A DNA stretch of 38,572 nucleotides from Betaproteobacteria bacterium. GTDB lineage: Bacteria > Pseudomonadota > Gammaproteobacteria > Burkholderiales > SG8-41. The notes under the pieces are model-generated. The model made no database searches and was not told the origin of the DNA. It was given only the letters and a program-made list of their open reading frames with translations. The number at the start of each line of letters is the position of its first letter. Positions within the stretch are counted from its first letter, which is position 1. The DNA lies in NCBI GenBank assembly GCA_016199485.1, contig JACQGO010000210.1:1-38572 (forward strand), in the 5' to 3' direction. Made by a program: the position numbers and the translations under genes. Shown piece by piece: positions 263-37,296 of the stretch.

Positions 263-2167
263 ATGTTTGATTTCGTCACCCGGCACAAGCGGCTGATCCA
301 GGTCGTCCTGGCGGTCATCTTCCTGCCGTTCGCGTTCTTCGGCATCGACACCTATTTCCGGGGCGGCGGCGGCAGCCAGACGGTGGCGGAGGTCGGGGGC
401 CACGGCATCTCGCAGCAGGAGTTCGACCAGGCGTTGCGCCAGCGGCAGCAACTCCTGCAGCGCCTGGCGCAAGGGCGCGTGGATCCCGCAATGCTCGACA
501 ATCCGGAGCTGCGCTACGCCACGCTGGAGGGCCTGGTCCAGCGCCGTCTGCTGCTCGAGCGGGCCCTCGCCGGCGGCATGGCGGTGAGCGACGAGCAGCT
601 GCAGGGCGCCATCGGCGGAATGCCCGTGTTCAATGACGAGTCCGGCAAGTTTTCGATCAACCGCTACGACATGTATCTCAAGGCCGAGGGCATGAACCGC
701 GCGGCGTTCGAGGCGCGGGTGCGCCAGGACCTGATCCTGCGGCATCTCACCGACGGCTACGGCGACAACTATTTCGTGCCGCGCACCGTCGCCGACCGCC
801 TGGCGCGGCTCGCCGGACAGAGCCGCGAGGTGAGCACGTACGCGATTCCCGCGGACCGCTACCTCGGGCAGGTCAAGCTCGATGCCGCGGCCGCGAAGCA
901 GTACTACGACGCCAACCCGGGCGAGTTCCAGGTCGCCGAGCGGGTGCGGGTCGAGTACATCGCCCTGTCGGTCGACGCGCTCCTGCCGCAGGCGCAGATC
1001 GGCCGCGAGGAACTGGAAGGCGCCTATCAGCGGCAGGTGGTGGGGGTGAAGAAGGAGCGGGACGAGGCGCAGAAGCGGGCCGAGCGCATCCTCGGCGAGC
1101 TGCGCAAGGCCCCCGGCAGCTTCGAGGCGCTGGCCCGCAAGCATTCCCAGGACCCCGGCTCCGCGGAGAGGGGCGGGGATCTCGGGTTCTTCGGCAAGGG
1201 CGCGATGGCCAGGCCGTTCGAGGACGCGGTCTTCAGGCTCAAGGAAGGTGAGATCGGTCCCCTGGTCGCCACCGAATTCGGTTTCCACATCATCAAGCTG
1301 ACCGGCAAGCGGCCCGTTGCGGGCGCGAAGGGGCGGACGGCGGAGGAGCGGCGCGCGAGCCATATCCTGCTGACGGCGCCGAAGGACCCCGGGCCGCAGG
1401 CGGGGAGAAACGAGATCGAGCTCGAGTTGAAGCGCCAGGCCGCGCAAAAGCGTTTCGCCGAAGTCGCGGACAATTTCAACAACCTGGTCTACGAGCAGTC
1501 GGAGAGCCTCAAGCCGGCGGCGGAACTCGCCAAAATCGCGCCGCGGCAGAGCGGCTGGATCACCCGCGGGCAGGCGGACGACCCGCTGCTCAACAACCCC
1601 AAGCTGCTCGCCGCGATCTTCTCCGACGACGTGCTCAAGAACCGCCGCAACACCGAGGCGATCGACGTCGCGCCGAACACGCTGGTTGCGGCGCGCGTCC
1701 TCGAGCACAAGCCGGCGAGCATGCCGCCTTTCGCGGAAGTGCGCGCGGCGATCGAGAAAAAGCTCACGCTGCGCGAGGCGGCGCGGCTGGCGGCGCAGGA
1801 GGGACGCAGCCAGCTCGAGCAGTTGCGGCAAGGCAAGGATGCGCGGATCGCCTGGGGCGCCCCGCAGACGGTCAGCCGCTCCGACCACAAGGATCTGACC
1901 GAGCCGGTGCTGCGGGCGTTGTTCCGCGCGGACGCCTCGAAGCTGCCGGCGTACGCCGGCGTCGAGGGACCGCAGGGCGGCTATACGCTGCTGCGGATCG
2001 CCCGCGTCACCGAGCCGGCCGACGTGCCGGACGACAGACGCAGGTCCATGGCCGATTCATTGCGCCAGGTGCTGGGACAGGAGCAACTGGCGGCCTATAT
2101 CGCGAGCCTGAAGCAGCAGGCCAGGATCAGGACCAGCAAGGAAGCGCTGGAGAAGAAGGACCGGTAA
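263..2167 (+). CDS. ppiD: Peptidylprolyl isomerase PpiD, membrane-anchored periplasmic chaperone
   Basis: 634 residues, close to the usual PpiD length (about 620). A short cytoplasmic N-terminus (MFDFVTRHKR) is followed by one transmembrane helix (about residues 11-34). A SurA-N-like helical chaperone region comes next, then a parvulin domain around residues 230-350, recognised by HSQDPGSAERGGDLGFF and GFHIIKL. The remaining roughly 280 residues form the second, degenerate parvulin-like and helical region typical of PpiD. The family sits at the periplasmic face of the inner membrane near SecYEG and helps newly exported outer-membrane proteins fold. The start ATG lies just after tRNA-Asp with a GAGAAAGAA stretch as possible ribosome site. 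A long antisense open frame here is a GC-rich shadow. Confidence 0.95.
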   Translation: MFDFVTRHKRLIQVVLAVIFLPFAFFGIDTYFRGGGGSQTVAEVGGHGISQQEFDQALRQRQQLLQRLAQGRVDPAMLDNPELRYATLEGLVQRRLLLERALAGGMAVSDEQLQGAIGGMPVFNDESGKFSINRYDMYLKAEGMNRAAFEARVRQDLILRHLTDGYGDNYFVPRTVADRLARLAGQSREVSTYAIPADRYLGQVKLDAAAAKQYYDANPGEFQVAERVRVEYIALSVDALLPQAQIGREELEGAYQRQVVGVKKERDEAQKRAERILGELRKAPGSFEALARKHSQDPGSAERGGDLGFFGKGAMARPFEDAVFRLKEGEIGPLVATEFGFHIIKLTGKRPVAGAKGRTAEERRASHILLTAPKDPGPQAGRNEIELELKRQAAQKRFAEVADNFNNLVYEQSESLKPAAELAKIAPRQSGWITRGQADDPLLNNPKLLAAIFSDDVLKNRRNTEAIDVAPNTLVAARVLEHKPASMPPFAEVRAAIEKKLTLREAARLAAQEGRSQLEQLRQGKDARIAWGAPQTVSRSDHKDLTEPVLRALFRADASKLPAYAGVEGPQGGYTLLRIARVTEPADVPDDRRRSMADSLRQVLGQEQLAAYIASLKQQARIRTSKEALEKKDR

Positions 2168-2244
2168 AGCCGGGGGATCGCGAGATCGGGAGATCGTAAG
2201 ATGGATTATCGCTCTCCCGCACTCCCGCCCTCACGTTGATTGTT

Positions 2245-3036
2245 TCACCCGTCGGCGCCGTTCCCTCCGACCGTCGTATTGAATCCGCAATCCACGTAGG
2301 TGATCTCGCCGGTGATGCCGCTGGCGAGATCGCTCATCAGGAACGCCGCGGCGTTGCCGACCTCATCGATGGTCACGTTGCGCCGCAGCGGCGCGACTTC
2401 CTCGACGATTTTCTGCTTCTTGCCGAAGTTGCTGATGCCGGCGGCGGCCAGCGTCTTGATCGGGCCCGCCGAGATGCCGTTGACCCGTATCCCCTTCGGC
2501 CCCAGGTTGCGGGCGAGATAGCGCACGTTGGCTTCCAGGCTTGCCTTGGCGAGCCCCATTACGTTGTAATTGGGCACCGAGCGCGCGGCGCCGAGATAGG
2601 TGAGGGTCAGCAGCGCGCTGTTCCGCCCCTCCATCATCGGCAGCCCGGCCTTCGCCAGCGCGGCGAAGCTGTAGGAGCTGACATCGTGCGCGACGCGGAA
2701 CGCCTCCCGCGTAAGCCCGTCGAGCAGTTCCCCCTTGAGCGCCTCGCGCGGGGCGTAGGCGATCGAGTGCACGATGCCGTCGAGCCCGTTCCAGTGCCCG
2801 CCGAGGGCCGCGAACAGGGCGTGGATCTGCCCGTCCTCGGCCACGTCGCAGGGCAGCACCGGCGCGGCGCCGAACTCCCGGGCGAGCGACGCGACGCGGT
2901 CCCTGATGTCCTCGTTCTGGTAAGTGAACGCGAGCGTCGCGCCCTCGCGCGCGAGCGCCCGGGCGATGCCGTAGGCGATCGAGCGGTTGGAGAGCAGGCC
3001 GGTGATGAGAATTTTCTTGTCTTGCAGAAAGCCCAT
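2245..3036 (-). CDS. fabI: Enoyl-[acyl-carrier-protein] reductase (NADH) FabI
   Basis: 263 residues, almost exactly the length of E. coli FabI. It catalyses the last reduction in each fatty-acid elongation cycle in the cytoplasm. The N-terminus [20 protein letters not shown] carries the FabI-type nucleotide-binding motif. The catalytic Tyr-x6-Lys is in YNVMGLAK, inside a segment ([19 protein letters not shown]) that I recall as essentially identical in E. coli FabI. The start at 3036 is chosen because a GGGGAA ribosome site precedes it and the family begins MGFL. The open frame extends 12 codons upstream without family similarity. It is divergent from the ABC transporter operon, and a minus-strand TATAAT lies at 3082-3087. 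Confidence 0.96.
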
Positions 3037-6265: not shown

Positions 6266-7731
6266 TGCCTTTTCTCCCCGTTGTCCTGTTTACCGACTGG
6301 CTGATCGGCGCGCTGCTCGCGGCGGTGGCGGTGCTCGTCTGGTACGTGCGGGGCCACGAGCACCTCGCGGCGCCGTGGCAGCGGGTCGCGCGCAGCAAGA
6401 GCGGCATGGTGGGACTCACGGTGCTCGCGGTCTACGTCGTGGTCGGCGTGCTCGATTCGCTGCACTTCCGGCCGCGGCTCGAGGCGGGCGAGCCGGGCCG
6501 GCCGGTGTATGCGGTCGAGGTGCTGTCGTTGTTCGACGTGATCGTGGGACCGTTGCGCGCGCGCGCGGAGAAAACCTATTCCGCGCCGTTTGCAACGCAT
6601 CTCTATGCCAAGGAGGCGCTGGAGCCCGCGGGCGGGCGCCAAGTGCGCGACTACCCGCGGCTCAAGTACGGCGGCGCGCATCTCGCGGACCCCGAGGCGG
6701 AGTTCGCCGGCGACGTGGCGAAACGCGTTGTCGCGGGGGTCGCCGCCGGCGCGCTCGGCTGGCTCGTGCTCGCCGCGCTGCTGTGCGCGCTGCTTGCGCG
6801 GCGCCATGGAGCCGACCTCGACCGCGCGTGGAGGGCAGTCTGGCGGGGCGAGACCGACGTGCCGTGGGCGGTCGTGCTGATCGTCGTCCTTGTGCTCGCG
6901 CAGCTCGCGGCGCTGGCGACGGCCCTGAGCGGCGGCTACCACGTGTTCGGCACCGACAAGGTCGGGCAGGACGTGCTCTACCTCGCGTTGAAGAGCGTGC
7001 GCACGGGACTCGTGATCGGAACGCTCACCACGCTGGTGATGCTGCCGTTCGCAATCGCGCTCGGCATCGCCGCGGGCTATTTCGGCGGCTGGGCCGACGA
7101 CCTCATCCAGTACGTCTATACCACGCTCAATTCCATCCCCGGCGTGCTGCTGATCGCCGCGGCGGTGCTGATGATGCAGGTCTACATCGACACCCGCCCC
7201 GAGCTGTTCGCGACCTCGGCGCAGCGCGCGGACCTGCGGTTGCTGTTCCTGTGCGTGATCCTGGGAGTGACGAGCTGGACCAGCCTGTGCCGGCTGCTGC
7301 GCGGCGAGACGCTGAAGCTGAAGGAACTCGAGTATATCCAGGCGGCACAGGCGTTCGGGGTGCCGCACCCGCGCGTCATCTCCCGGCACATCCTGCCTAA
7401 CGTGATGCACATCGTGCTGATCTCGGTGGTGATGGAGTTCAGCGGGCTGGTGCTCGCGGAGGCGGTGCTGTCCTACGTGGGTGTGGGCGTCGATCCCTCG
7501 ATGATCAGCTTCGGCACCATGATCAACAACGCGCGGCTGGAGATGGCGCGCGAACCCATGGTGTGGTGGTCGCTCACCGCGGCCTTCATCTTCATGTTCG
7601 TGCTGGTGCTCGCGGCGAATCTCTTCGCGGATGCGGTGCGCGACGCGTTCGATCCGCGGCTCGCAAGCCTCGGGGCGGCACCGCTCAGGCTCAAGCCGCT
7701 GCCGGCCGGTCGCGTACAGGGGGCGCGGTGA
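6265..7731 (+). CDS. ABC transporter permease (YejE/DppC type) with an enlarged N-terminal half
   Basis: 488 residues, clearly longer than usual YejE/DppC proteins (about 300-350). A first helix (about 8-28) and [20 protein letters not shown] match the N-terminal part of the family. About 150 extra residues with their own hydrophobic segments ([23 protein letters not shown] and [20 protein letters not shown]) then precede the canonical core, which begins at [24 protein letters not shown]. The EAA loop is [25 protein letters not shown] (about 355-380). [12 protein letters not shown] is the usual family ending. It starts inside the stop of the preceding gene and its TGA overlaps the GTG of the ATPase gene. 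Confidence 0.92.
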
Positions 7732-9764
7732 GCGCTCCGCTGATTTCGATCAGCGAGCTTCGCACCTGGCTTGCCAGCGGCGAGGGCGTGGTGCGCGCGG
7801 TGGACGGGCTCTCGCTCGCTCTCGAGCGCGGCGAGACTTTTGCGCTGTTGGGGGAGTCCGGATGCGGCAAGTCGATGACCGCTCTTTCGGTGATGCGGCT
7901 GCTGCCCGATGCGGGGCGCATCGTCACCGGGGAGGTGCGGATCGACGGTCTCGATCTGCTCGCGTTGCCGGAAGCGGAGATGCGCGGCATACGCGGGCGG
8001 CGGGTGGCGATGATTTTCCAGGAGCCGATGCTTTCCCTCAATCCGGTGCTGACGGTCGGCGAGCAGGTCGGCGAGGCGCTGCGCCGGCACACCACGCTGC
8101 GCGGCGCGGCGGTCGCGGGCCGCGTGCGCGAGCTGCTCGACGCGGTAGGCATTCCCGACGCCGCGCGCCGCGTGCGCGAGTACCCGTTCCATCTCTCCGG
8201 AGGCATGAAACAGCGCGTGATGATCGCGATGGCGCTGGCGTGCAACCCGGAGCTGCTGGTCGCCGACGAGCCCACCACGGCGCTCGACGTTACGATCCAG
8301 GCGCAGGTGCTCGATCTGCTGCGCGAGCTGCAAAGACAGACGGGCATGACGCTGCTGCTGATTACGCACGACCTGGGGGTGGTCTCGGAAATGGCGCATC
8401 GCGTGGCAGTCATGTACGCGGGGGAGATCGTCGAGGTGGCGCCGCGCGCGCAGTTCTTCTCGCACCCCGCGCATCCCTATTCGCGCAAGCTGTTCGATTC
8501 GCTGCCGGGCAGGCACCACCGCGAAGGCGCGCTCGCGGTGATCAGGGGCAGCGTGCCGCCGCTCACGAGCGAATTCCGGGGTTGCCGCTTCGCCGAGCGC
8601 TGCGATTCGGCGTGGGCGCTGTGCCGCGAGACGGCGCCGGCGTGGCACGAGGTGGGAGAGGGGCGGGGGGTGCGGTGCCATCTTTTCGCCCCGGGCGAAA
8701 AGCGTGAGGCGTCGGTCGCGAGGCGTGAGGAAAGAAAACCACGCCCCCCTCCGGCCGCCGCCACGGAATCCGGCGCACGCCCTGCTCCTGGCTCCTCACT
8801 GCTCACCGTCGAAGGACTCAAGGTCCACTTCCCGGTGCGCAAGGGCGTCCTGAAGCGCGTCGCAGGCTACGTGAGGGCGGTCGACGGCGTGTCGCTCGCG
8901 ATCGGGCGCGGCCGCACGCTGGGACTGGTCGGCGAGTCGGGTTGCGGGAAGACCACGGTGGGCAAGGGCATCCTACGCCTGATCGAGCCGACGGCGGGGA
9001 CGGTGCTGTTCGCGGGCGAGGATCTGTCGCGCATGCCGCGGCGCGAGCTGCGCCCGCGCCGCAAGCACGTGCAGATCATTTTCCAGGACCCGTTTGCCTC
9101 GCTCAATCCGCGCATGCGCGTCTCCGAGATCATCGAGGAGGGCATGGTTGCGCTCGGCATCGGCGCGGACGCCTTCGAGCGCGCGCGCCGCATCGACGCG
9201 TTGCTCAATGAAGTGGGGCTCGCCCCGGAGGTGAAACACCGCTATCCGCACGAGTTTTCGGGCGGCCAGCGCCAGCGCATCGCGATCGCCCGCGCGCTTG
9301 CGGTGGAGCCGCAGCTCATCGTCTGCGACGAGCCGACCAGCTCCCTCGATATCTCGGTGCAGGCGCAGATCCTGAACCTGCTGCGGGACCTGCAGCGCAA
9401 GAAGGGACTCGCGTATCTGTTCATCACCCACAACATCTCGGTGGTCGAATTCCTCGCGCACGAGGTGGCGGTGATGTACCTCGGGAGAATCGTCGAGCAC
9501 GGCACGGTGGACGAGGTGCTGGGAAATCCACAGCACCCGTATACGCGCGCCCTGCTCTCCGCGGTGCCGATGATCGATCCGGCTGCCAGGCGGGAGGTGA
9601 TGCGGTTGCCGGGCGACCTGCCGTCACCCCTCAGTCCGCCGGCGGGCTGCCATTTCCATCCGCGTTGTCCGGCGGCGATGCCGCGCTGCAGGGAAGCGTA
9701 TCCGGAGAGCAACGCCGTGAGCGCAACCCGCACCGTGTGTTGCCACCTCTATTCCGGCGGTTGA
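7728..9764 (+). CDS. ABC transporter ATP-binding protein, two fused nucleotide-binding domains (YejF type)
   Basis: 678 residues with two complete ATPase domains. The first has Walker A GESGCGKS, signature LSGGMKQR, Walker [13 protein letters not shown] and H-loop LLITHD. The second has [28 protein letters not shown] and LFITHN. Each is followed by an oligopeptide-type C-terminal segment with a spaced cysteine set ([14 protein letters not shown] and [14 protein letters not shown]), as in DppD/OppD ATPases. The GTG start at 7728 is chosen because it overlaps the permease stop (GTGA) and begins directly before the domain. A Pro/Arg/Ala-rich linker of about 50 residues joins the halves. It powers the transporter encoded just upstream and ends 10 bp from the convergent mltD stop. 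Confidence 0.94.
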
Positions 9765-24433: not shown

Positions 24434-24475
24434 GTGGTGGGTGGTACTGGGTTCGAACCAGCGACCCCTGCCGTG
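24434..24475 (-). repeat. Left attachment site: tRNA-Val 3'-half fragment
   Basis: In minus orientation this runs from the anticodon CAC through the variable loop, T-arm (GGTTCGAACC) and acceptor strand to CCA. It is a perfect copy of the tRNA-Val at the right end, and similarity stops abruptly at 24476. It cannot make a tRNA because the D-arm and 5' acceptor strand are absent. Confidence 0.85.
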
Positions 24476-24679: not shown

Positions 24680-25798
24680 ATGCCGTCCGTCAGACCGTTC
24701 GTTGCCAAGCTCCTGCCGCGCGCCGGCCTCGACTGGAAGGGGCTGGTGCCCGCCATCGGCCGGGCGACCCGGGCGCTCGCCCGTTACGACGGCATCCTGC
24801 ACGGCGTGCCGGACCCGGCGGTGCTGCTGTCGCCGCTCACCACACAGGAAGCGGTGCTGTCCTCGAAGATCGAGGGCACGCAGGCGACCCTGGGCGACGT
24901 GCTGCGCTTCGAGGCGGGCGAGCCGCCGGCGAGCGGCGAGCGGCGCGAGGACATCCGGGAGATCCTCAACTACCGCAGGGCGCTGAGGGAGGCCGAGCGG
25001 GCGCTGGCGAAGGGGCGATTCAGCCTGTCCCTGCTCAAGCGCCTGCACGCCGTGCTGCTCGAGAGCGTGCGCGGACGCGGCAAGACGCCGGGTGAGTATC
25101 GCCGCGCGCGGGTCTGGGTCGGGGAGCCCGGCACGCCGATCGAACAGGCGCGTTTCATTCCGCCGGAACCCGCGCGGGTGCCGGCGCTGCTCGCCAACCT
25201 GGAGGCGTACTGGCGCGCCGAGGAACTCGACCCGCTGGTGCAGCTCGCGCTCATCCACGCCCAGTTCGAGATCATCCACCCGTTCCGGGACGGCAACGGC
25301 CGGATCGGGCGCATGCTGGTGCCGCTGTTTCTCTACGAGAAGAAGCTGCTCTCACGGCCGATGTTCTACCTGTCGCAGTACTTCGACACGCGCCGGACCG
25401 AGTACATCGCACGGCTGCGCGCCCTGAACGGCCCCGCATCGTGGAACACCTGGGCGGCGTTTTTCCTGCGCGCGCTGGCGGAGCAGGCGGACGCGAATGC
25501 GGACAAGGCGCGCCGTATCCTCGCGCTCTACGAGCGGCTCAAGGCACGGACCATCGAATTGACGCGCTCGCAGTATGCGGTGCCGCTGCTTGACCGGTTG
25601 TTTGCCCGGCCGGTCTTCGCGTCGAACGACCTGTTCCGCGACCCGAAAATGCCAACCAAGCCCGTAGTGACGCTGCTGCTGCAGCGCTTCCGCGACGCGG
25701 GCATACTCAAGCGCCTGCGCGAGGCGAGCGGGCGGCGGGCGCAGGTGCTGGCGCTGGCGGAGTTGGTGAATCTATGCGAAGGGAAGAAAGTCCTGTAG
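24680..25798 (+). CDS. Fic family protein (class II AMP-transferase with N-terminal inhibitory helix)
   Basis: 372 residues, full length for the Fic_N/Fic/winged-helix architecture. The Fic core motif HPFRDGNGRIGR is intact (200-211), with catalytic His200. The N-terminal inhibitory motif (S/T)xxxE(G/N) is visible as SSKIEG (61-66), so the enzyme should be self-inhibited as in class II Fic proteins. About 130 C-terminal residues (TKPVVTLLLQRFRDAGILKRL) look like a winged-helix DNA-binding domain. Such proteins transfer AMP from ATP to target hydroxyls. The target is unknown. It is the first gene of the island and retains the GC-rich composition of the chromosome, unlike the next 1.3 kb. Confidence 0.93.
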   Translation: MPSVRPFVAKLLPRAGLDWKGLVPAIGRATRALARYDGILHGVPDPAVLLSPLTTQEAVLSSKIEGTQATLGDVLRFEAGEPPASGERREDIREILNYRRALREAERALAKGRFSLSLLKRLHAVLLESVRGRGKTPGEYRRARVWVGEPGTPIEQARFIPPEPARVPALLANLEAYWRAEELDPLVQLALIHAQFEIIHPFRDGNGRIGRMLVPLFLYEKKLLSRPMFYLSQYFDTRRTEYIARLRALNGPASWNTWAAFFLRALAEQADANADKARRILALYERLKARTIELTRSQYAVPLLDRLFARPVFASNDLFRDPKMPTKPVVTLLLQRFRDAGILKRLREASGRRAQVLALAELVNLCEGKKVL

Positions 25799-27198: not shown

Positions 27199-27624
27199 AT
27201 GCGGCGATTTACTTATCCGGTCAAGCTTACGCGCGATAAGGACGGCGGATTTGTCGTGACCTGCCGTGATCTTCCCGAAGCGATTACGCAGGGCGATACC
27301 GTCGAAGAAGCCTTGCGGGAGGCCGAAGGCGCGGTGCAGGCGGCAATCGAAGGGCGCATCGAGGACGGCCTTGACATCGCCGAACCTTCGCGCCCGAAGC
27401 GCGGCGAACGATTGGTTGCGACGCCCGTGACCACGGCGCTCAAGGCGTCCGTGTATCTCGCCATGCGCGAGCAGGGTGTCACGAAAATCGAGCTCGCGCG
27501 CCGCATGAAGATCGATGAAAAAGAAGCGAGGCGGATGCTCGACCCGAACCACCCGACTAAAGTGCCGACGCTTGAGCGGGCACTGACCGCCCTCGGTCGG
27601 CGGGCCGAAGTGGCGGTGACATAG
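27199..27624 (+). CDS. hicB: HicB family antitoxin (orphan, no HicA visible)
   Basis: 141 residues. The N-terminal HicB fold reads RRFTYPVKLTRDKDGGFVVTCRDLPEAITQGDTVEEALREAEGAVQAAIE (partial RNase H-like). A helix-turn-helix C-terminus follows (LKASVYLAMREQGVTKIELARRMKIDEKEARRMLDP). HicB neutralises the mRNA interferase HicA and represses the operon. hicA normally lies directly upstream, but neither side contains a HicA-like frame, so this is a solitary antitoxin or HicA has been lost. Ribosome site GAGGGAA precedes ATG 27199. It lies in the accessory part of the island. Confidence 0.88.
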   Translation: MRRFTYPVKLTRDKDGGFVVTCRDLPEAITQGDTVEEALREAEGAVQAAIEGRIEDGLDIAEPSRPKRGERLVATPVTTALKASVYLAMREQGVTKIELARRMKIDEKEARRMLDPNHPTKVPTLERALTALGRRAEVAVT

Positions 27625-27775: not shown

Positions 27776-28366
27776 GTGAACAAGCTCGCTTTTCTGGGGC
27801 TCGGTTTCGCTCTCGCGTTCAACGTGCACGCTGCGTCAAGCTGCCGCGCCATTGATGGCGACACCGTGCAGTGCGGCAAAGAACGAGTCCGGCTTCGCGG
27901 AGTGTACGCAGCGGAAAAAAGCGGCCCGGGTGGAGAACAAGCGCGCGCAAATCTACAGAGGAAGCTCGACTCAGGCGAAGTGCGGATCGCGCGACGGGGA
28001 AAAGACCAATATGGCCGCACATTGGGTGACATTTACGTGAGCGGCAGAAAGGTCACGCAGAGCGACATTGGCCCCAAGGGTGGCCGAGGCGCAAAGCAGG
28101 CAACGAAAACGCGCTCGCGAACCCGCGCGGCCCGCGGGGACGTAGCGGCGCGCGTACCTAGATCAAAAGGCGCAAGCGGGCCGAAGCAGGCATCGGGAAG
28201 ATCCGCGTGGGGCAGTTCGCTTAGCACACCCCGCAGTTCCGCAACCGGCAAGTCCCTATCCAGCGGGCGCAACTCATCCGTTTCCCGGGGAAGTTCCGTT
28301 AGCCGAAGTCCATCCGGGAGCCGCAGGAGTGGAGGCGGTAGCCGCAGCGGAGGACGCCGGCGATGA
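27776..28366 (+). CDS. Exported staphylococcal-nuclease-like protein with a basic Ser/Arg/Gly tail
   Basis: 196 residues from GTG 27776. A signal peptide (1-19, ending VHAA) precedes a short SNase-like (TNase) domain, residues 22-97: AIDGDTVQCGKERVRLRGVYAAEKSGPGGEQARANL and DQYGRTLGDIYVSGRKV. Active-site-type residues Asp (DGDT), Glu (AAEK) and Arg (YGRTLG) are in place, although the usual GIDAPE reads GVYAAE. The last 95 residues are low-complexity, Ser/Arg/Gly/Lys-rich and strongly basic, perhaps for DNA or envelope binding. It is probably a secreted or periplasmic nuclease, with activity unproven. The 150 bp before it contain only a short fragment ending at 27750. Confidence 0.75.
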   Translation: MNKLAFLGLGFALAFNVHAASSCRAIDGDTVQCGKERVRLRGVYAAEKSGPGGEQARANLQRKLDSGEVRIARRGKDQYGRTLGDIYVSGRKVTQSDIGPKGGRGAKQATKTRSRTRAARGDVAARVPRSKGASGPKQASGRSAWGSSLSTPRSSATGKSLSSGRNSSVSRGSSVSRSPSGSRRSGGGSRSGGRRR

Positions 28367-29585: not shown

Positions 29586-30482
29586 CTACTTCCACTCCTT
29601 GAGCATATCGGCCCGCCTTAGACCGGACTTGATTTGCTCGATGCGGTCTTCGGTCAACGGCAGGAATGGCAGCTTGGGAACTCCAATGTCAATGCCAAGC
29701 AGCGGCAGCACCGCATGATAAAACGGAACGGGAATTCCTTCCCCCGTCAGTTTGCGCACAGAATTCGCCTGCTTCTGCAAGGTTCCGGCTTCGAGAAATC
29801 GTCCGTCTTGGCATAGCTGATAGATCGCCTTGACGAACTTCGGAAAGGCGTTCGATAGGCCGGATACGCAACCGTGCGCCCCGCCTACCATGGCCGGCAC
29901 AAGGTGTGTCTGCGAGCCGATCAAAAAGAGGAAGTCGGGGACAGTTACCTTCCCCATATATTCATAGAACAAAGCAATGTCACCGCTGCTGTCTTTGACT
30001 CCCTGAACACCTTTTTCGGCGAGCCTGGAAAGGAGATCTGCCGATACAGAAAAATTGCTGTATTTGGGATTATTGTAGACGAGAACCGGAATTTTTACCG
30101 AGTTGATGATGGATTCGTAGTGGCGAATAATCGAGCCTTCGCTGTGCCGAAAATAGAAGGGCGTCACGGCAGCGACCGCGTCCATTCCGACAGACTCGGA
30201 ATGTCTGGCCAGCTCGATACTGCTTGCCGTATCCGGGCATCCGATGTGCATGATCAGAGGGATTCTTTTTTGGACCACTTCTACGCTAATTTCGGCGATT
30301 CTTTTTCGCTGGTCCACCGTCATGATGGGTCCCGACCCGTAGGACCCGCACAACCACAATCCATCCACCTGCGGTACGAGGTGCTCCAAGTAACGTCGTA
30401 GTGCCGTTTCGGCCACGCGACCATCGGCGTCGAATGGTGTGATCACTGCCGGATAGATTCCCTTGAATCTTGAAACATTCAT
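29586..30482 (-). CDS. DapA/NanA superfamily aldolase, resembling 2-keto-3-deoxygluconate aldolase
   Basis: 298 residues, the standard length. Schiff-base Lys163 is in GVKDSSGD and catalytic Tyr136 in VLVYNNP. The dihydrodipicolinate synthase GTTGES loop is replaced by GSYGSGP (46-52). This resembles the GTTGLGPALS loop that I recall from KDG/KDPG aldolases of this superfamily. With a KDG-kinase-like gene directly upstream, cleavage or formation of a 2-keto-3-deoxy sugar acid is the best guess, but substrate cannot be read from sequence. It is the last gene of the minus-strand block. Confidence 0.85.
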   Translation of the reverse strand: MNVSRFKGIYPAVITPFDADGRVAETALRRYLEHLVPQVDGLWLCGSYGSGPIMTVDQRKRIAEISVEVVQKRIPLIMHIGCPDTASSIELARHSESVGMDAVAAVTPFYFRHSEGSIIRHYESIINSVKIPVLVYNNPKYSNFSVSADLLSRLAEKGVQGVKDSSGDIALFYEYMGKVTVPDFLFLIGSQTHLVPAMVGGAHGCVSGLSNAFPKFVKAIYQLCQDGRFLEAGTLQKQANSVRKLTGEGIPVPFYHAVLPLLGIDIGVPKLPFLPLTEDRIEQIKSGLRRADMLKEWK

Positions 30483-30561: not shown

Positions 30562-31596
30562 TCACCGGTGAATTGAGTCTCGCCCACCGAGAAACTGTTC
30601 GACCTGCTCTCTCGTCGGAAGGGCTTCGACGTTGCCGCGCACGGTTACCGTCAATGCGCCAACTGCGTTAGCGTAAACCAGCGATTCCCGAAGCTTCCAG
30701 CCGTTAAGGTATCCCGCCAGGAAACCAGCCGTAAATGCGTCGCCCGCGGCGAAGGTGTCCATAACCGGGACCTTGTGCCCTTCGACGGCGACTTCCTCCG
30801 TGTTCTTTTTGGCGACAGCGCCATTCGCGCCAAGTTTTATGGCAACTAGTTGCACTCCCAGGGTCTCCACCTTCCGGGAGACATGACCGAGCTCGGCAGA
30901 GCCGAAGAGCAGATTGCACTCCTCGATTCCCGGAAACAGAAAGTCTGTGTACTTGAGCATTTCATTGATGGTCTCACGCGCGTCGTCCTCATTCCACATC
31001 TTCAGCCGGATGTTTGGATCAAGGGACACTTTTACCCCGTGCTTTCGCGCAAGCTTCATCGCGTAGATAACGGCTTCCCGGCAGCTGGGGCTTAACGAAG
31101 GAGTAATACCGGTCACGTGCAGAACGCGGGCCTGTGAAATGTAACCCTCGTCGATATCCTCAACACTCAAGAAACTCGCGGCCGAGTGCTTCCGATAGTA
31201 GAAGTTCTGGCCGCCGCCAACTCCGGAGCGTTGCCGAACAAAAAGCCCGGTGGGATGTTCGCGATCGATTTTCACCTGCGAGACGTCGATGCCTTCGCCG
31301 CGAAAAAATGAGACGAGATAGTGGCCGAACTCATCTTCGCCAACTCGGCTGATCCAGCCCGCGGAATGCCCCAGTCTGAGCACCCCGACGGCAACATTAG
31401 TTTCCGCGCCCCCCGCGTGACGCTCATAGGATGTAACGTATCTAAGAAGTCCAGGGCGAGTCCCTTCGAATACAACGCACGTCTCGCCCACGGTCACAAC
31501 CTCTGGCACGATTGCGCTCTTCCCCGTGTCTGCTGGGCCGCCTGCATGTCGGGCACCTTGGCCTTTTGAATGCTGGACGCTGAGATTCGGATTCAT
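30562..31596 (-). CDS. PfkB family sugar kinase, 2-keto-3-deoxygluconate kinase-like
   Basis: 344 residues. The ribokinase fold is clear: GGAETNVAVGVLRLG (62-76), GRVGEDEFG-like SRVGEDEFGHY, SLDPNIRLKMW (191-201), and PfkB signature DTFAAGDAFTAGFLAG with catalytic Asp286. The DPNxR-LW segment and the overall pattern point to KDG kinases. The first 30 residues (HSKGQGARHAGGPADTGKSA) have no counterpart in the family, and a GTG just before PEVVTVGE could be the true start. The gene lies 79 bp upstream of the aldolase-like gene and 58 bp downstream of the LeuD-like gene, all in one direction. Confidence 0.87.
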   Translation of the reverse strand: MNPNLSVQHSKGQGARHAGGPADTGKSAIVPEVVTVGETCVVFEGTRPGLLRYVTSYERHAGGAETNVAVGVLRLGHSAGWISRVGEDEFGHYLVSFFRGEGIDVSQVKIDREHPTGLFVRQRSGVGGGQNFYYRKHSAASFLSVEDIDEGYISQARVLHVTGITPSLSPSCREAVIYAMKLARKHGVKVSLDPNIRLKMWNEDDARETINEMLKYTDFLFPGIEECNLLFGSAELGHVSRKVETLGVQLVAIKLGANGAVAKKNTEEVAVEGHKVPVMDTFAAGDAFTAGFLAGYLNGWKLRESLVYANAVGALTVTVRGNVEALPTREQVEQFLGGRDSIHR

Positions 31597-31654: not shown

Positions 31655-32206
31655 TCACCTGGGACCAAGGTGAAGCGTTCCGGCCTTCAGTTGCTGCTCA
31701 ATCCAGGGGTAGATTCCACCCGCATCCAACATTTCTAGGATGAAGGTCGGAAATGGCTTGAAGTTCAACTCTTCCTTCGTCCGAAGGTTTCTTGCGTAGC
31801 CCCTCTCCACATCCAACTCCAGTTCATCCCCCTGTTGGACTGCTTTTCTAATCCCCTTGAGTTCCACTACCGGAAGGCCATGGTCGAGGCTGTTGCGCAG
31901 AAAGTAGGGACCAGCACTTTCACATAGTACGGCAGCCACTCCCGCGCCCTTGATGGCCTTGGGTCCGGTATCGTGATCATGGCCGTATCCAAAGTTTTCG
32001 CCGGCCACGATGAAATCCCCTTTTCGCACTTTCTTGGGGAAATCAGGGTCCACCTTGATCATCGCAAACTGCCCAATTTGGTCATAGCGCCCCCAGACGC
32101 CAAGTTCGACTCCTGCACTTTGAAGCTCGGGAAAGGGACAGATCTCCCAATCCACATCCATGATGCCGTCGAAGACCCACGCCTTACCTCGCAGTGGTTT
32201 CACCAT
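31655..32206 (-). CDS. LeuD-like (aconitase small-subunit) protein with a replaced active-site motif
   Basis: 183 residues, the size of archaeal-type 3-isopropylmalate dehydratase small subunits. The frame fits from RGKAWVF to the C-terminus (PFPTFILEMLDAGGIYPWI), with KVDPDFPKKVRKGDFIVAGENFG well preserved. In LeuD the next residues are CGSSREHAP, where Ser and Arg act in catalysis. Here they read YGHDHDTGP (73-82), so both are gone and two His and two Asp appear. The N-terminal DTD-II motif is also changed (MDVDWEI). It should not be a normal isopropylmalate isomerase. The partner is the equally altered LeuC-like protein at 35853. Ribosome site GGGGG precedes ATG 32206. Confidence 0.85.
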   Translation of the reverse strand: MVKPLRGKAWVFDGIMDVDWEICPFPELQSAGVELGVWGRYDQIGQFAMIKVDPDFPKKVRKGDFIVAGENFGYGHDHDTGPKAIKGAGVAAVLCESAGPYFLRNSLDHGLPVVELKGIRKAVQQGDELELDVERGYARNLRTKEELNFKPFPTFILEMLDAGGIYPWIEQQLKAGTLHLGPR

Positions 32207-32290: not shown

Positions 32291-32656
32291 TTAGCCAAGC
32301 ACTTTTTCAGCGAAACCTTTCACCTGCTGGTAGCTTCCAATACATTTCTTTCCATCTTCAACACTCCACGCCCTCGCTCGTCGAAGATTGCGGCGAAGAT
32401 CCTCGATGTACTTCATTGCCGAAAACAGTGGTTGCAACTCGCGCTTAACCAAGGTCTCTAGCTGGGGCTTATCCGAATGCAGAAGATCCGCCCCTTCCTT
32501 TGTAACGGAATATTTGTGAAGGATCGCATTGAGGAGATGTGTCCCCGCTAGCATGCACGCCTCGACGAATATCTCGTGGTCCTGGTCACGGTCGAGTTTA
32601 TTGAGCATTGTTTGCTCGATCCGGTATGCCTTGGTTAAGTGGTCAATGATTCGCAT
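32291..32656 (-). CDS. Small helical protein of unknown function, paralog B of a tandem pair
   Basis: 121 residues, predicted mostly helical: HLTKAYRIEQTMLNKLDRDQDHEIFVEACMLAGTHLLNAILHKYSVT, then LFSAMKYIEDLRRNLRRA and KCIGSYQQVKGFAEKVL. It aligns over its whole length with the next gene upstream. Shared positions include the DxEI-x4-C block, N-x2-LHK, TKE-x2-DL-x-H, K-x-IEDL and C-x3-Y-x2-V-x3-AEK. I recognise no family. The HEPN-like look (a bundle with LHK and long helices) is only an impression. It sits between its paralog and the LeuD-like gene and may be an accessory subunit of that enzyme. Confidence 0.75.
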   Translation of the reverse strand: MRIIDHLTKAYRIEQTMLNKLDRDQDHEIFVEACMLAGTHLLNAILHKYSVTKEGADLLHSDKPQLETLVKRELQPLFSAMKYIEDLRRNLRRARAWSVEDGKKCIGSYQQVKGFAEKVLG

Positions 32657-32680: not shown

Positions 32681-33052
32681 TTATCCGTTGATAAGTTTCT
32701 CAGCGTATGCTCTAACCTTTCCGTACGCAGCCAGACAATTTCTCACCGCTTGCGGATCGATAGGTTCAATGCCCCTCACAAAACGCGGTCCCAAATCTTC
32801 GATCGATTTCAAGATGGCCAACATCTCAGCCACGGCAGGTGGCACTTCACGATTTAACTCTGGCATGTTCGCGTGAATAAGGTCAAAGGTCTCTTTTGTA
32901 ATTCCAGCCTTGTGAAGCACGACATTCGCCAACTGGGCCCCTCCCTGGATACAACTCCAAATGATTATTTCGTAGTCATCTTTGTCATTGAGCTTGGTCG
33001 TCCTGGTTGTCTCCAAGCGTCTGGCCTTTGCCCAGTGTTCTTCTGCGCGCAT
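32681..33052 (-). CDS. Small helical protein of unknown function, paralog A of a tandem pair
   Basis: 123 residues, homologous to the gene 24 bp downstream. Key shared segments are MRxxxHxxKAxRxE at the start, DYEIIIWSCIQGGAQLANVVLHKAGITKE in the middle, LKSIEDLGPRFVRG, and CLAAYGKVRAYAEKL at the end. No signal peptide or membrane helix is visible. AAGGGA lies before ATG 33052. The two genes are clearly old duplicates, and an adjacent pair like this often forms a hetero-oligomer. Position within the catabolic block suggests a role with the aconitase-like pair, but this is inference. Confidence 0.77.
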   Translation of the reverse strand: MRAEEHWAKARRLETTRTTKLNDKDDYEIIIWSCIQGGAQLANVVLHKAGITKETFDLIHANMPELNREVPPAVAEMLAILKSIEDLGPRFVRGIEPIDPQAVRNCLAAYGKVRAYAEKLING

Positions 33053-33519: not shown

Positions 33520-34350
33520 CTACGTTGTTCCACCACACACGCTGATAGCCTGACCCGTTACGTACGAGCTTGCTTCGGAAGCCAAGAAGGCAACCATTGC
33601 CGCAACTTCCTCCGGGTGGCCTTGCCGACCGACTGGTATATGCTCGACGCGTTTGGCAAGCCCTGCTTCCAAATCGTCTCCCGGGTGGCTTAGCCTCGCT
33701 GCACTAAGCGCCCTGCTCGTGAGAATGGCGCCGGGACAGATTGCATTGACAGTGATTCCGTGCGGGGCAAGATCCACCGCCAATGCACGTGTGAAGCCTA
33801 CAATTGCCGCCTTGGACGCTGAATAGACCGCCTTATGCTTTCTGCCGTACTTAGCAGAAGCCGAAGAAATACTAATGATTCGTCCCCATCCTTGCTTTCG
33901 CATAGGTGTCACGGCAGATCGTGACATCAGGAATACTCCACGGGCATTGATTGCCATCACGTTCTCCCACACGTCCAGAGGTACATCCTCGATATCGGCG
34001 CGATCTCGACCATAGGGTGCGCCAGCATTGTTAACAAGAATGTCGAGTCGGCCATATCGCGCCAGAACCTCGCGGACCATGCGTGCCGCATCAACTTCAG
34101 AGGTCACATCTCCTTGCCCCGAAGAAGCGGTACCACCGGCCGCGACGATCTCATCCACGAGAGATTCAAGCCCTCGCCAGGACTGATCAGTATCATTCTG
34201 CAAATCACCTACATTGGCAACGCCTCGTATCGCCACATCGGTTACGACCACAATCACGCCAGACGCAGCTAACGCACGTGCCGTAGCAGATCCGATCCCT
34301 TTTTGTTTACCGCAACCCGTTATCAGCGCGACTCGGCTAGACGCTTTCAT
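33520..34350 (-). CDS. Short-chain dehydrogenase/reductase (SDR), 3-ketoacyl reductase-like
   Basis: 276 residues, classical SDR. Cofactor motif is TGCGKQKGIGSATARAL (11-27), slightly expanded compared with TGxxxGIG. NNAG is at 107-110, the catalytic Ser in IISISSAS, and YSASK gives Tyr176 and Lys180. The C-terminal VTGQAISVCGGTT is usual. It oxidises or reduces a hydroxyl/keto group with NAD(P). Substrate is unknown. As part of the minus-strand block it probably handles a hydroxy or sugar acid intermediate. GAGGAAA precedes the ATG. Relics of two insertion sequences flank the gene. Confidence 0.9.
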   Translation of the reverse strand: MKASSRVALITGCGKQKGIGSATARALAASGVIVVVTDVAIRGVANVGDLQNDTDQSWRGLESLVDEIVAAGGTASSGQGDVTSEVDAARMVREVLARYGRLDILVNNAGAPYGRDRADIEDVPLDVWENVMAINARGVFLMSRSAVTPMRKQGWGRIISISSASAKYGRKHKAVYSASKAAIVGFTRALAVDLAPHGITVNAICPGAILTSRALSAARLSHPGDDLEAGLAKRVEHIPVGRQGHPEEVAAMVAFLASEASSYVTGQAISVCGGTT

Positions 34351-34689: not shown

Positions 34690-35682
34690 TTAATCGACTT
34701 TGGCGCCGGAAGCCTTGACTATCGTCTCCCACTTGGCGATCTCGTCGCGCACAAAAACCGCAAATTGCTCGGGCGTACTGCCGACACGCTCCGCACCTTG
34801 GCTCAGAAACCGTTCATTCATTTCATTCGAGTTGATGGCCCTGATGAGTGCGGCATTAAGGTAGGAGTAGAGGGTCTTGGGTGTGCCGGGCGGTAAGAAT
34901 ACACCATGCCAGGTCGAAGGTTTAAAGCGGGCAAGGCCCGACTCGGCGGAGGTCGGTACTTTGGGCAGCAGCGCTGAGCGCCGTTCAGCCGTGAGAACCA
35001 GTGCGCGCAGCTTCCCGCTTCGCACATGCGGCAACAGTGACGGGATGGTGTTGAATGTCAGGTCCACTCGCCCCGCAAGCAGATCCGACAGCGACGCAGG
35101 GAAACCCTTGTACGGAACGTGCGTGATGTCGATACCCGCCACGATTTTCAGCATCACCCCCGTAAGGTGCGAGCCGCTGCCGTTGCCCGCCGACGCGAAG
35201 GTAATCTGGCCGGGTTTAGTTTTGGCGAGAGCAATTAAATCCTGCAGCGAGTTCGTCGGCACAATCGGATTCGAGACCAGCAGATACGGCAGCGTCGTGA
35301 GTTGGGTGATGGGAACAAAGTCTTTCAGAGGATCATAAGGCAGTTTTGACAACAGGGTAGGGGTGATCGCGAAGGCGACATTCGTCATCAGCAACGTATG
35401 GCCGTCGGGCGATGCCTTGGCAACCAGATCCGAACCGATTACCCCTCCCCCACCGCCGCGATTCTCGACGACTACCTGCTGGCCGAGGACAACGCCAAGA
35501 CTTTGGGCAACAAGGCGGGCAACAGTATCGATCGACCCTGACGCGAGGAATGGCACGATCATTCTGATCGGCTTGGACGGATAAGCCTGCTCTGAACTTG
35601 TCGAACGGGACTGCGCGGCCGTCGCGCACGCAAACCCGAACGCGACCGCAAGCACAAACGCACGCAGCAGTGGATGTCTCAT
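34690..35682 (-). CDS. Bug family (TctC-type) tripartite tricarboxylate receptor
   Basis: 330 residues. Signal peptide 1-23 (AFVLAVAFGFACATAAQ) and a full Bug domain: YPSKPIRMIVPFLASGSIDTVARLVAQSLG, VVENRGGGGGVIGSDLVAKASPDGHTLLM, THVPYKGFPASLSDLLAGRVDL and HVRSGKLRALVLTA. It is a periplasmic high-affinity receptor for a small acid. It is clearly different from the other Bug protein in the island, so two related substrates or two acquisitions are possible. Its ATG overlaps the stop of the CobW-like fragment upstream. It lies in the same direction as the LeuC-like gene and is presumably its importer component. Confidence 0.92.
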   Translation of the reverse strand: MRHPLLRAFVLAVAFGFACATAAQSRSTSSEQAYPSKPIRMIVPFLASGSIDTVARLVAQSLGVVLGQQVVVENRGGGGGVIGSDLVAKASPDGHTLLMTNVAFAITPTLLSKLPYDPLKDFVPITQLTTLPYLLVSNPIVPTNSLQDLIALAKTKPGQITFASAGNGSGSHLTGVMLKIVAGIDITHVPYKGFPASLSDLLAGRVDLTFNTIPSLLPHVRSGKLRALVLTAERRSALLPKVPTSAESGLARFKPSTWHGVFLPPGTPKTLYSYLNAALIRAINSNEMNERFLSQGAERVGSTPEQFAVFVRDEIAKWETIVKASGAKVD

Positions 35683-35852: not shown

Positions 35853-37109
35853 TCACAGATATTTTCGTGGGTCTGTTATCTTTCCTGCGACGCAGGATGC
35901 GGTGACGGTATACGGCGCCGCCAAGAACATCTTTGCTGAGAGATCGCCGCCCCGTCCCGGGGGATTGGTTGACCCCGTGTTTACGCCTATCTCTCCAATT
36001 CCCAACGGCGTATTCTTATCTGTGCCGGGGACGTGCAGAACGCATTCGGCAGCCAGCAGCGTCGAAACGAAGCCCTCATTCACTGCGTCTCGAAGGATGT
36101 TCATACTACCTGGCACGATATCCATGATAACGTCAGGATGAATTTTGCGGCCTTCCAGAATCTCGGCTGCCATCCTTATGTCGGCCAGCCAGCCGTTGTG
36201 TTCCGTGCCAACCATACCCTTGTTAATCGTGACCCCCGCCACCTCAGACACAGGTTTTACCGTGTAGCGATTGTCTGGCATCACCACTTGCGGTTCGATG
36301 TTAGACACGTCAAATTCATACACTTTCGCATAGTGCGCGTCCGGATCACTGACTAACGGCTCAAATTCCTCACCAGAGTGATGCCTCACCCAGGATAATG
36401 TCTTCTCATCAGGATTCATGATTGAGGTCCACGCACCAGTGAACAGCGTCACTCCACATAAGCAGAACCTTGCGTCCATGTCCATCTCGTCAACGACGGG
36501 CCCCACCCACTCCGTAACCATGCCAACGGCACCCGACGGCCCGATTCGTCCCAGCGTGTACTCCGAAATGTCTCTGGCGGATACCCCCTTGGGGAGCTTG
36601 CCCTTGATGATCATCTTGCAACTCTGAGGAACCTTGATCCATGTCTTGCCTCTGGCGAGGTAAGCGCCTGTGCCAAAGGAAAGTGCTAAGGAAAAGCAGC
36701 CTAGCGCTCCTACAGTGCAGGTGTGACCATTAACTCCTTGAAAGATACACTCCCCAGGTAGTGCCCAGCCCTTTTCCGCAGTAATTATCGCTTCAGCACC
36801 CTGCCGTCCCAGCTCGTAGATGTATTCCTTGCGGATACCCATTGCCTTGGCCCACTCGCGCGTCGTTCGCCTGTTCTCTTGAGCGACCTTGCTCTCGGTG
36901 GCTCCATAGTGACCGTCTACGATCCTGATGCGATGAACATCGAACGGCTTGATACCCCATAATGCGAGTCGATCTGCTCCTTTGCCAAGCGCCGAGTGGT
37001 GCGCCATGGTCGTCGGTCGATTGCTCGTTACCTCAATGTAATCGCCGGGCGACACTTCTTTCTTATTTGCTGCTCTCGCCAGGATCTTTTCTGTGATGGT
37101 CTTGCCCAC
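35853..37109 (-). CDS. LeuC-like (aconitase large-subunit) protein lacking the iron-sulfur cysteines
   Basis: 418 residues, the length of archaeal-type 3-isopropylmalate dehydratase large subunits, and alignable from MGKTITEKIL to AGKITDPRKYL. Conserved pieces include HTCTVGALG, ARGKTWIKVP, DARFCLCGV, PDEKTL, KPVSEV and AAEILEGRKIHPDV. Two cluster-binding motifs are replaced. GSCTNGR reads GTEHNGW (301-307). The TCGPC region reads VPGTDKN (360-366). GADSHTCT has become GVNGHTCT (125-132). None of the three [4Fe-4S] cysteines remains, so normal hydratase chemistry is excluded or changed. The frame is intact with GTG start at 37109 behind GAGGAGG. First gene of the block next to tRNA-Val. Confidence 0.87.
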   Translation of the reverse strand: MGKTITEKILARAANKKEVSPGDYIEVTSNRPTTMAHHSALGKGADRLALWGIKPFDVHRIRIVDGHYGATESKVAQENRRTTREWAKAMGIRKEYIYELGRQGAEAIITAEKGWALPGECIFQGVNGHTCTVGALGCFSLALSFGTGAYLARGKTWIKVPQSCKMIIKGKLPKGVSARDISEYTLGRIGPSGAVGMVTEWVGPVVDEMDMDARFCLCGVTLFTGAWTSIMNPDEKTLSWVRHHSGEEFEPLVSDPDAHYAKVYEFDVSNIEPQVVMPDNRYTVKPVSEVAGVTINKGMVGTEHNGWLADIRMAAEILEGRKIHPDVIMDIVPGSMNILRDAVNEGFVSTLLAAECVLHVPGTDKNTPLGIGEIGVNTGSTNPPGRGGDLSAKMFLAAPYTVTASCVAGKITDPRKYL

Positions 37110-37176: not shown

Positions 37177-37221
37177 GGCGAAACAGCGAATGGAGCTACT
37201 TCGATAAGTGCTTGAGTTTGG

Positions 37222-37296
37222 TGGTGGGTGGTACTGGGTTCGAACCAGCGACCCCTGCCGTGTGAAGACAGTGCTCTACCGCTGAGCTAACCACCC
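37222..37296 (-). tRNA. tRNA-Val (anticodon CAC), island integration site
   Basis: In minus orientation the acceptor GGGTGGT pairs with ACCACCC, the D-arm reads TAGCTCAGCGGTAGAGC, the anticodon stem CTGTC/GGCAG encloses TTCACAC (anticodon CAC), and the T-arm is CTGGGTTCGAACCCAG. CCA is encoded. The half from the anticodon to CCA is duplicated at 24434-24475, marking this gene as the attachment site of the island. Confidence 0.96.

Follow-up and report, generated by a model that had tools for sequence, protein, structure and literature searches.

A large subunit of LeuC/HacA type (418 aa) that lacks all three cysteines of the [4Fe-4S] cluster is encoded on the minus strand at 35853-37109 of the window, the 38,572-nucleotide stretch of DNA analysed here. 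Aconitase-type enzymes are a textbook example of iron-sulfur-cluster catalysis. At least three relatives that lack the same cysteines have genes kept intact by selection, and the arrangement looks like a natural redesign, not a broken gene. We give about even odds to the window protein and its small subunit forming a functional heterodimeric lyase or hydratase of the LeuCD fold that works without a cluster, its carboxylates probably holding one hard divalent metal ion. The protein is a new variant within a known fold family, outside LeuC/HacA.

An intact large subunit with a rewritten active site

The reading frame starts with GTG at its 37109 end, runs for 418 codons without an internal stop and has AGGAGG five bases upstream, bearing out the intact frame, start and ribosome site of the preliminary description. 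The end-to-end alignment with archaeal-type LeuC/HacA proposed there is also seen, both with the Methanocaldococcus IPMI/HACN large subunits MJ0499 and MJ1003, over their full length and at ~31-34% identity, and with the profiles NF001614 and TIGR01343. The best of these profile scores is 306 bits against a cut-off of 385, and the protein falls under every NCBIfam cut-off for membership of LeuC/HacA. Membership of the aconitase superfamily, with domains 1-3 in the large subunit and domain 4 as its separate partner, is indicated by matches to PF00330 (148 bits in the Pfam profile search) and, for the small subunit, PF00694, and by structure prediction. The large subunit is predicted with confidence (pLDDT 92.6; TM 0.91 to MJ0499/MJ1003), the block at residues 361-370 less so (77); the small subunit (pLDDT 90.9; TM up to 0.94 to 3vba) has a fold resembling archaeal IPMI small subunits. 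Structure prediction with the LeuD-like partner had been suggested as a check; the predicted folds of both subunits are intact and match archaeal isopropylmalate isomerase at a TM of about 0.9. The host genome has other, separate aconitase-family large subunits, and these carry the cysteines.

The changes reach far beyond the cluster cysteines. In what follows, aconitase residue numbers are assigned by motif from the aconitase literature. At the site of Cys358 the usual GSCTNGR reads GTEHNGW (residues 301-307; 36189-36209), with Glu for Cys and Trp for Arg. The place of Cys421 and Cys424 is taken by a shortened loop, VPGTDKNT (residues 360-367; 36009-36032), which aligns with PSCSACMG of MJ0499 as VPGT-D-KNT, about four residues having been deleted in frame, with Asp364 left as the single acid. 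VDGH (residues 64-67; 36909-36920) retains His101, with Asp100 replaced by Gly and an Asp shifted by one position, and the subfamily signature NGH (residues 127-129; 36723-36731) retains His167, with Asn for Asp165 and Gly for Ser166. Just upstream of GAWT (residues 225-228; 36426-36437), F223 replaces Glu262. In GSTNPPGR (residues 379-386; 35952-35975), Arg452 is retained and Thr381 stands at the Arg447 position, which is Cys in the cysteine-containing relatives. All of these motifs were located by alignment and lie on the minus strand.

Alignment among 93 distinct long homologues agrees that the window protein has none of the three cysteines, as first described. Cysteine occupies all three sites in 87 of them; the others have Asp/Glu/Glu (four), Glu with the shortened loop (the window protein) or His/Thr/Asn (one distant paralogue). 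None of the eight cysteines of the window protein fits as a substitute, C356 alone being conserved across the group that lacks the cluster cysteines. The idea that cysteines from elsewhere in the chain take over, named in advance as the result that would overturn the description, was rejected on the same group, which has no conserved cysteine triad. The Glu, His and Asp singled out earlier as the set occupying the altered loops did not hold up as such: relatives have D303 and H310 where the window protein has E303 and H304, and an acid at 303 is the one feature of these loops common to all five Cys-less members.

The small subunit and its neighbours

The LeuD-like partner assumed in the preliminary description lies in the same minus-strand cluster at 31655-32206, where a LeuD/HacB swivel domain of 183 aa matches TIGR02087 with 113 bits. 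In place of the catalytic GSSRE (Ser642-Ser643-Arg644) it has GHDHD (residues 75-79; 31970-31984, by alignment). Four genes separate the two subunit genes: a TctC-type solute-binding protein (34690-35682), an SDR-family dehydrogenase (33520-34350) and two similar-looking orphans of 121 and 123 aa (32291-32656 and 32681-33052), neither of which has a Pfam, NCBIfam or PHROGs match. Beyond the small subunit, and likewise on the minus strand, are a PfkB-type kinase nearest to KDG/KDGal kinases (30562-31596; NF040938, 285 bits, below the cut-off) and a DHDPS-family aldolase/lyase (29586-30482).

Every related locus has a small-subunit homologue near the large-subunit gene. TctC or other solute-binding proteins are also found nearby, as are PEP-mutase/ICL-family lyases (L010, L014 and L017) and MmgE/PrpD proteins (L010 and L019). 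These catabolic neighbours, with the kinase and aldolase, point to a hydratase or lyase for an imported hydroxy acid in organic-acid catabolism, a suggestion that covers both chemistry and substrate. At L016 two more aconitase-type large-subunit genes (1072-2613 and 6895-8301) bring the number within about 10 kb to three.

The large-subunit gene lies in a 12.8-kb island bounded by perfect 42-bp direct repeats of the 3' part of tRNA-Val(CAC). The proximal copy (37221-37262) is inside the tRNA gene (37222-37296) and the distal copy (24434-24475) marks the island end. The GC content of the island is mostly below that of its flanks, at 50-62% from 26 kb on. Such a location and lower GC fit a rare subfamily that has spread by horizontal transfer. 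Pfam searches of the island reading frames gave no integrase, and a genome-wide search for one integrase-associated domain family gave matches on another contig only. Towards the far end the island encodes a Fic-domain protein (24680-25798), a HicB-like antitoxin (27199-27624) and an SNase-like protein (27776-28366).

A rare subfamily with and without cysteines

Eight relatives with 45-57% identity were recovered by a small-alignment scan and whole-genome searches: L014, L015, L016, L017, L018, L019, G1047/L103 and G293, where L016, L017 and L018 are taken to be the same contigs as G404, G429 and G425. With the window protein they make a clade of nine members (support 100/99), separate from the rest of the LeuC-like proteins in the tree, in nine genomes of Betaproteobacteria (L016, L017 and L018 among them), 'Deltaproteobacteria' (L015) and Chloroflexi (the label of L019, whose genome is of the same class as that of G1047/L103). 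Sampling by class, order and phylum added few members, so the subfamily is rare. A single-sequence scan of genome contigs and scans of viral contigs returned no relatives, and in the plasmid tblastn search identity was at most 38% among the matches listed.

All three cysteines are retained in four of the nine members (L014, L019, L103 and G293) and absent from the other five, the window protein and L015-L018. In L015-L018 the replacement is exact, Cys to Asp, Cys to Glu and Cys to Glu, with loop length unchanged. The Cys-less members also differ from the cysteine-containing ones in having Thr for Cys at the Arg447 position, Ala or Asn for His147 and Trp for Arg in the first cluster motif, so that the cysteine loss is one part of a concerted set of changes. 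The traits by which a 'cluster-free NGH subfamily' can be recognized (VDGH, NGH, FxGAWT, a GHD small subunit and no cluster cysteines) are all present in the window pair.

Much of the rewriting seems older than this division. Compared with other LeuC-like proteins, the whole clade, cysteine-containing members included, has Gly for Asp100 (VDGH), Phe for Glu262, Trp for Lys (GAWT), Cys or Thr for Arg447 and, except in G293, which keeps Asp, Asn for Asp165 (NGH); the window-like small subunits have GHDHx or a near variant (GHDx) in place of GSSRE. Because the cysteine-containing members already lack Asp100, Glu262, Arg447 and the small-subunit Ser and Arg, the rewriting of the active site seems to have started ahead of the loss of the cluster. 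These members share with the window locus the NGH/GAWT/GHDH signature (DGH in G293, GHDN in L019) and the solute-binding-protein context; they differ in keeping all the cluster cysteines and in carrying a fourth Cys where Arg447 would be. This fourth Cys, in the column of window residue 381, is confined to L014, L019, L103 and G293 and lies near the cluster site; it could complete the ligation of the cluster, which would then no longer act as a Lewis acid. Three of four cysteine-containing loci (L014, L108 and L010) have two tandem small-subunit genes, whereas one was seen per Cys-less locus; in the second copy of L014 and L108 an insertion replaces the GHDH loop.

With all alignment columns the Cys-less members form one clade (99/97). 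When the motif columns are removed its support drops to 56/14, and a tree placing the window protein beside L014, which would imply two separate cysteine losses, is not rejected (p-AU 0.31). With those columns left out, the tree does not divide one loss from two. A distant LeuC-like paralogue in the L015 genome, L102 (G827; 1501-2745, minus strand), has His/Thr/Asn at the three sites (GGHGGGR and PASTGSNQ in the alignment) and retains Asp-His, DSH and Arg447. It has its own small subunit, scores above the NF001614 cut-off and lies next to an OCD/mu-crystallin-like gene. Its lack of cysteines means that, as judged by alignment, cysteines seem to have been lost in at least two lineages.

A proposed metal site and other readings

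How might the pair work without a cluster? Under the preferred reading, the Asp or Glu at 303 and the acids of the 363-367 loop, with a nearby His, would be ligands at the place of the old cluster for one hard divalent ion, Mg, Mn or Fe(II), which would polarise either the hydroxyl or the carboxylate group of a hydroxy acid taken up by the cell. The acid-base work of Ser642, Glu262 and Asp165 would pass to His67, His129 and the GHDH of the small subunit, and the kinase and aldolase encoded nearby would take over the product. Least certain of these steps is the metal; Glu303 and Asp364 are the putative ligands that the window protein retains. That a different metal site might exist, as suggested at the outset, gains from the exact Cys to Asp/Glu/Glu change in the relatives and loses from the lack of conservation of the window's own set: its loop deletion leaves one of the two acids found there in relatives, and the His near the site has no fixed position (304 in the window protein, 310 in relatives). 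It is a tentative proposal that evolution exchanged the [4Fe-4S] cluster for a carboxylate-held single-metal site at the same three positions, with the cysteine-containing members as living intermediates.

The pair could instead be a lyase or isomerase free of both metal and cluster, relying on acid-base residues, in which the acids fill the cavity or bind substrate. MmgE/PrpD dehydratases are a known replacement for Fe-S dehydratases. His67 and His129 are invariant in the clade, the GHD of the small subunit is conserved, and the window protein and its relatives lack one fixed set of acids, all of which would suit such an enzyme. However, the change of three thiolates to exactly three carboxylates in L015-L018 is not expected of cavity filling, and this explanation appears rather unlikely. 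The alteration of almost all classical catalytic residues might also suggest a pseudoenzyme, a conserved pair with a dead site and a binding or regulatory role like that of apo-IRP1/IRP2. Yet Arg386 is conserved along with the two histidines, the neighbours are catabolic, and the conservation of the new GAWT, NGH and GHDH residues suggests a new active site; a pseudoenzyme would be an improbable outcome. This reading and metal-free catalysis are the two chief competitors of the metal site.

Decay had been named at the start as a possible undoing of the description. Among the L016-L018 large subunits dN/dS is 0.08-0.16, and for their small subunits 0.10-0.16; synonymous sites are saturated between the window gene and every relative, so that dN/dS has no useful value for it, and no close orthologue of this copy was found among the relatives searched. 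Simple decay is argued against by the occurrence of the cysteine loss in four other genomes as well. The narrower case, in which function is being lost in the window copy itself but not in the other Cys-less members, which would be active enzymes, is where the objection keeps some force: this is the most divergent Cys-less member, with the longest end branch in the group (0.5-0.6), its loop has an in-frame deletion, four genes part its subunit genes and it sits in an island. Against this stand the good ribosome site, the confident predicted fold and the open frame itself, which under simulated neutral point change survives in 10% of trials at 5% change and 0.9% at 10%. The latter figure excludes long-standing neutral decay, whereas the shortened loop and long branch leave room for a recent loss of function, to which we would give a low probability.

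It is very doubtful that a cluster is still bound through carboxylates and His or through cysteines elsewhere in the complex: C356 is common to the Cys-less members and Fe-S clusters with a single Asp or Ser ligand occur in other proteins, but the group has no conserved cysteine triad and we know of no cluster held by carboxylates alone.

Relation to known systems and implications

The window pair appears, from its sequence, to share fold, length and a heterodimer of large and small subunits with archaeal LeuCD/HacAB, as well as His101, His167 and Arg452. It differs from them in lacking Cys358, Cys421 and Cys424, in its changes at Asp100, Asp165, Asn258, Glu262, Arg447 and small-subunit Ser642 and Arg644, and in its sub-threshold NCBIfam scores. 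IRP1 and IRP2 are examples of an aconitase fold able to exist without a cluster. Unlike the window pair, they are eukaryotic, single-chain, RNA-binding proteins, and they are a more distant structural match; there is no indication of a similar RNA-binding role for the window pair. Aconitase X (cis-3-hydroxyproline dehydratase and mevalonate-5-phosphate dehydratase) is likewise an aconitase-fold enzyme whose active site has been rebuilt. Its Fe-S cluster is still held by cysteines (PMC8184944, PMC10040528), in contrast to the window protein, and the structural match is distant (TM 0.5-0.6). No AcnX family is among the Pfam and NCBIfam matches of the window protein, which also lacks a conserved cysteine triad.

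Published surveys report that every member outside AcnX conserves the cysteines of the cluster and most residues of the active site (PMC8184944). In the literature covered, which takes in a minority of subscription papers, no account of a prokaryotic aconitase-family enzyme without these cysteines was found. Annotation models may name such proteins isopropylmalate dehydratases, since L102, in which all the cluster cysteines are missing, scores above the cut-off of NF001614. If the present reading is true, a selected cluster-free branch alongside cysteine-containing sisters would make the evolution of cofactor replacement directly testable in the aconitase fold, and the separate L102 lineage would mean repeated escape from the cluster. 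Such a branch would also be relevant to the suggestion that the aconitase superfamily descends from an ancestor without a cluster (PMC8184944).
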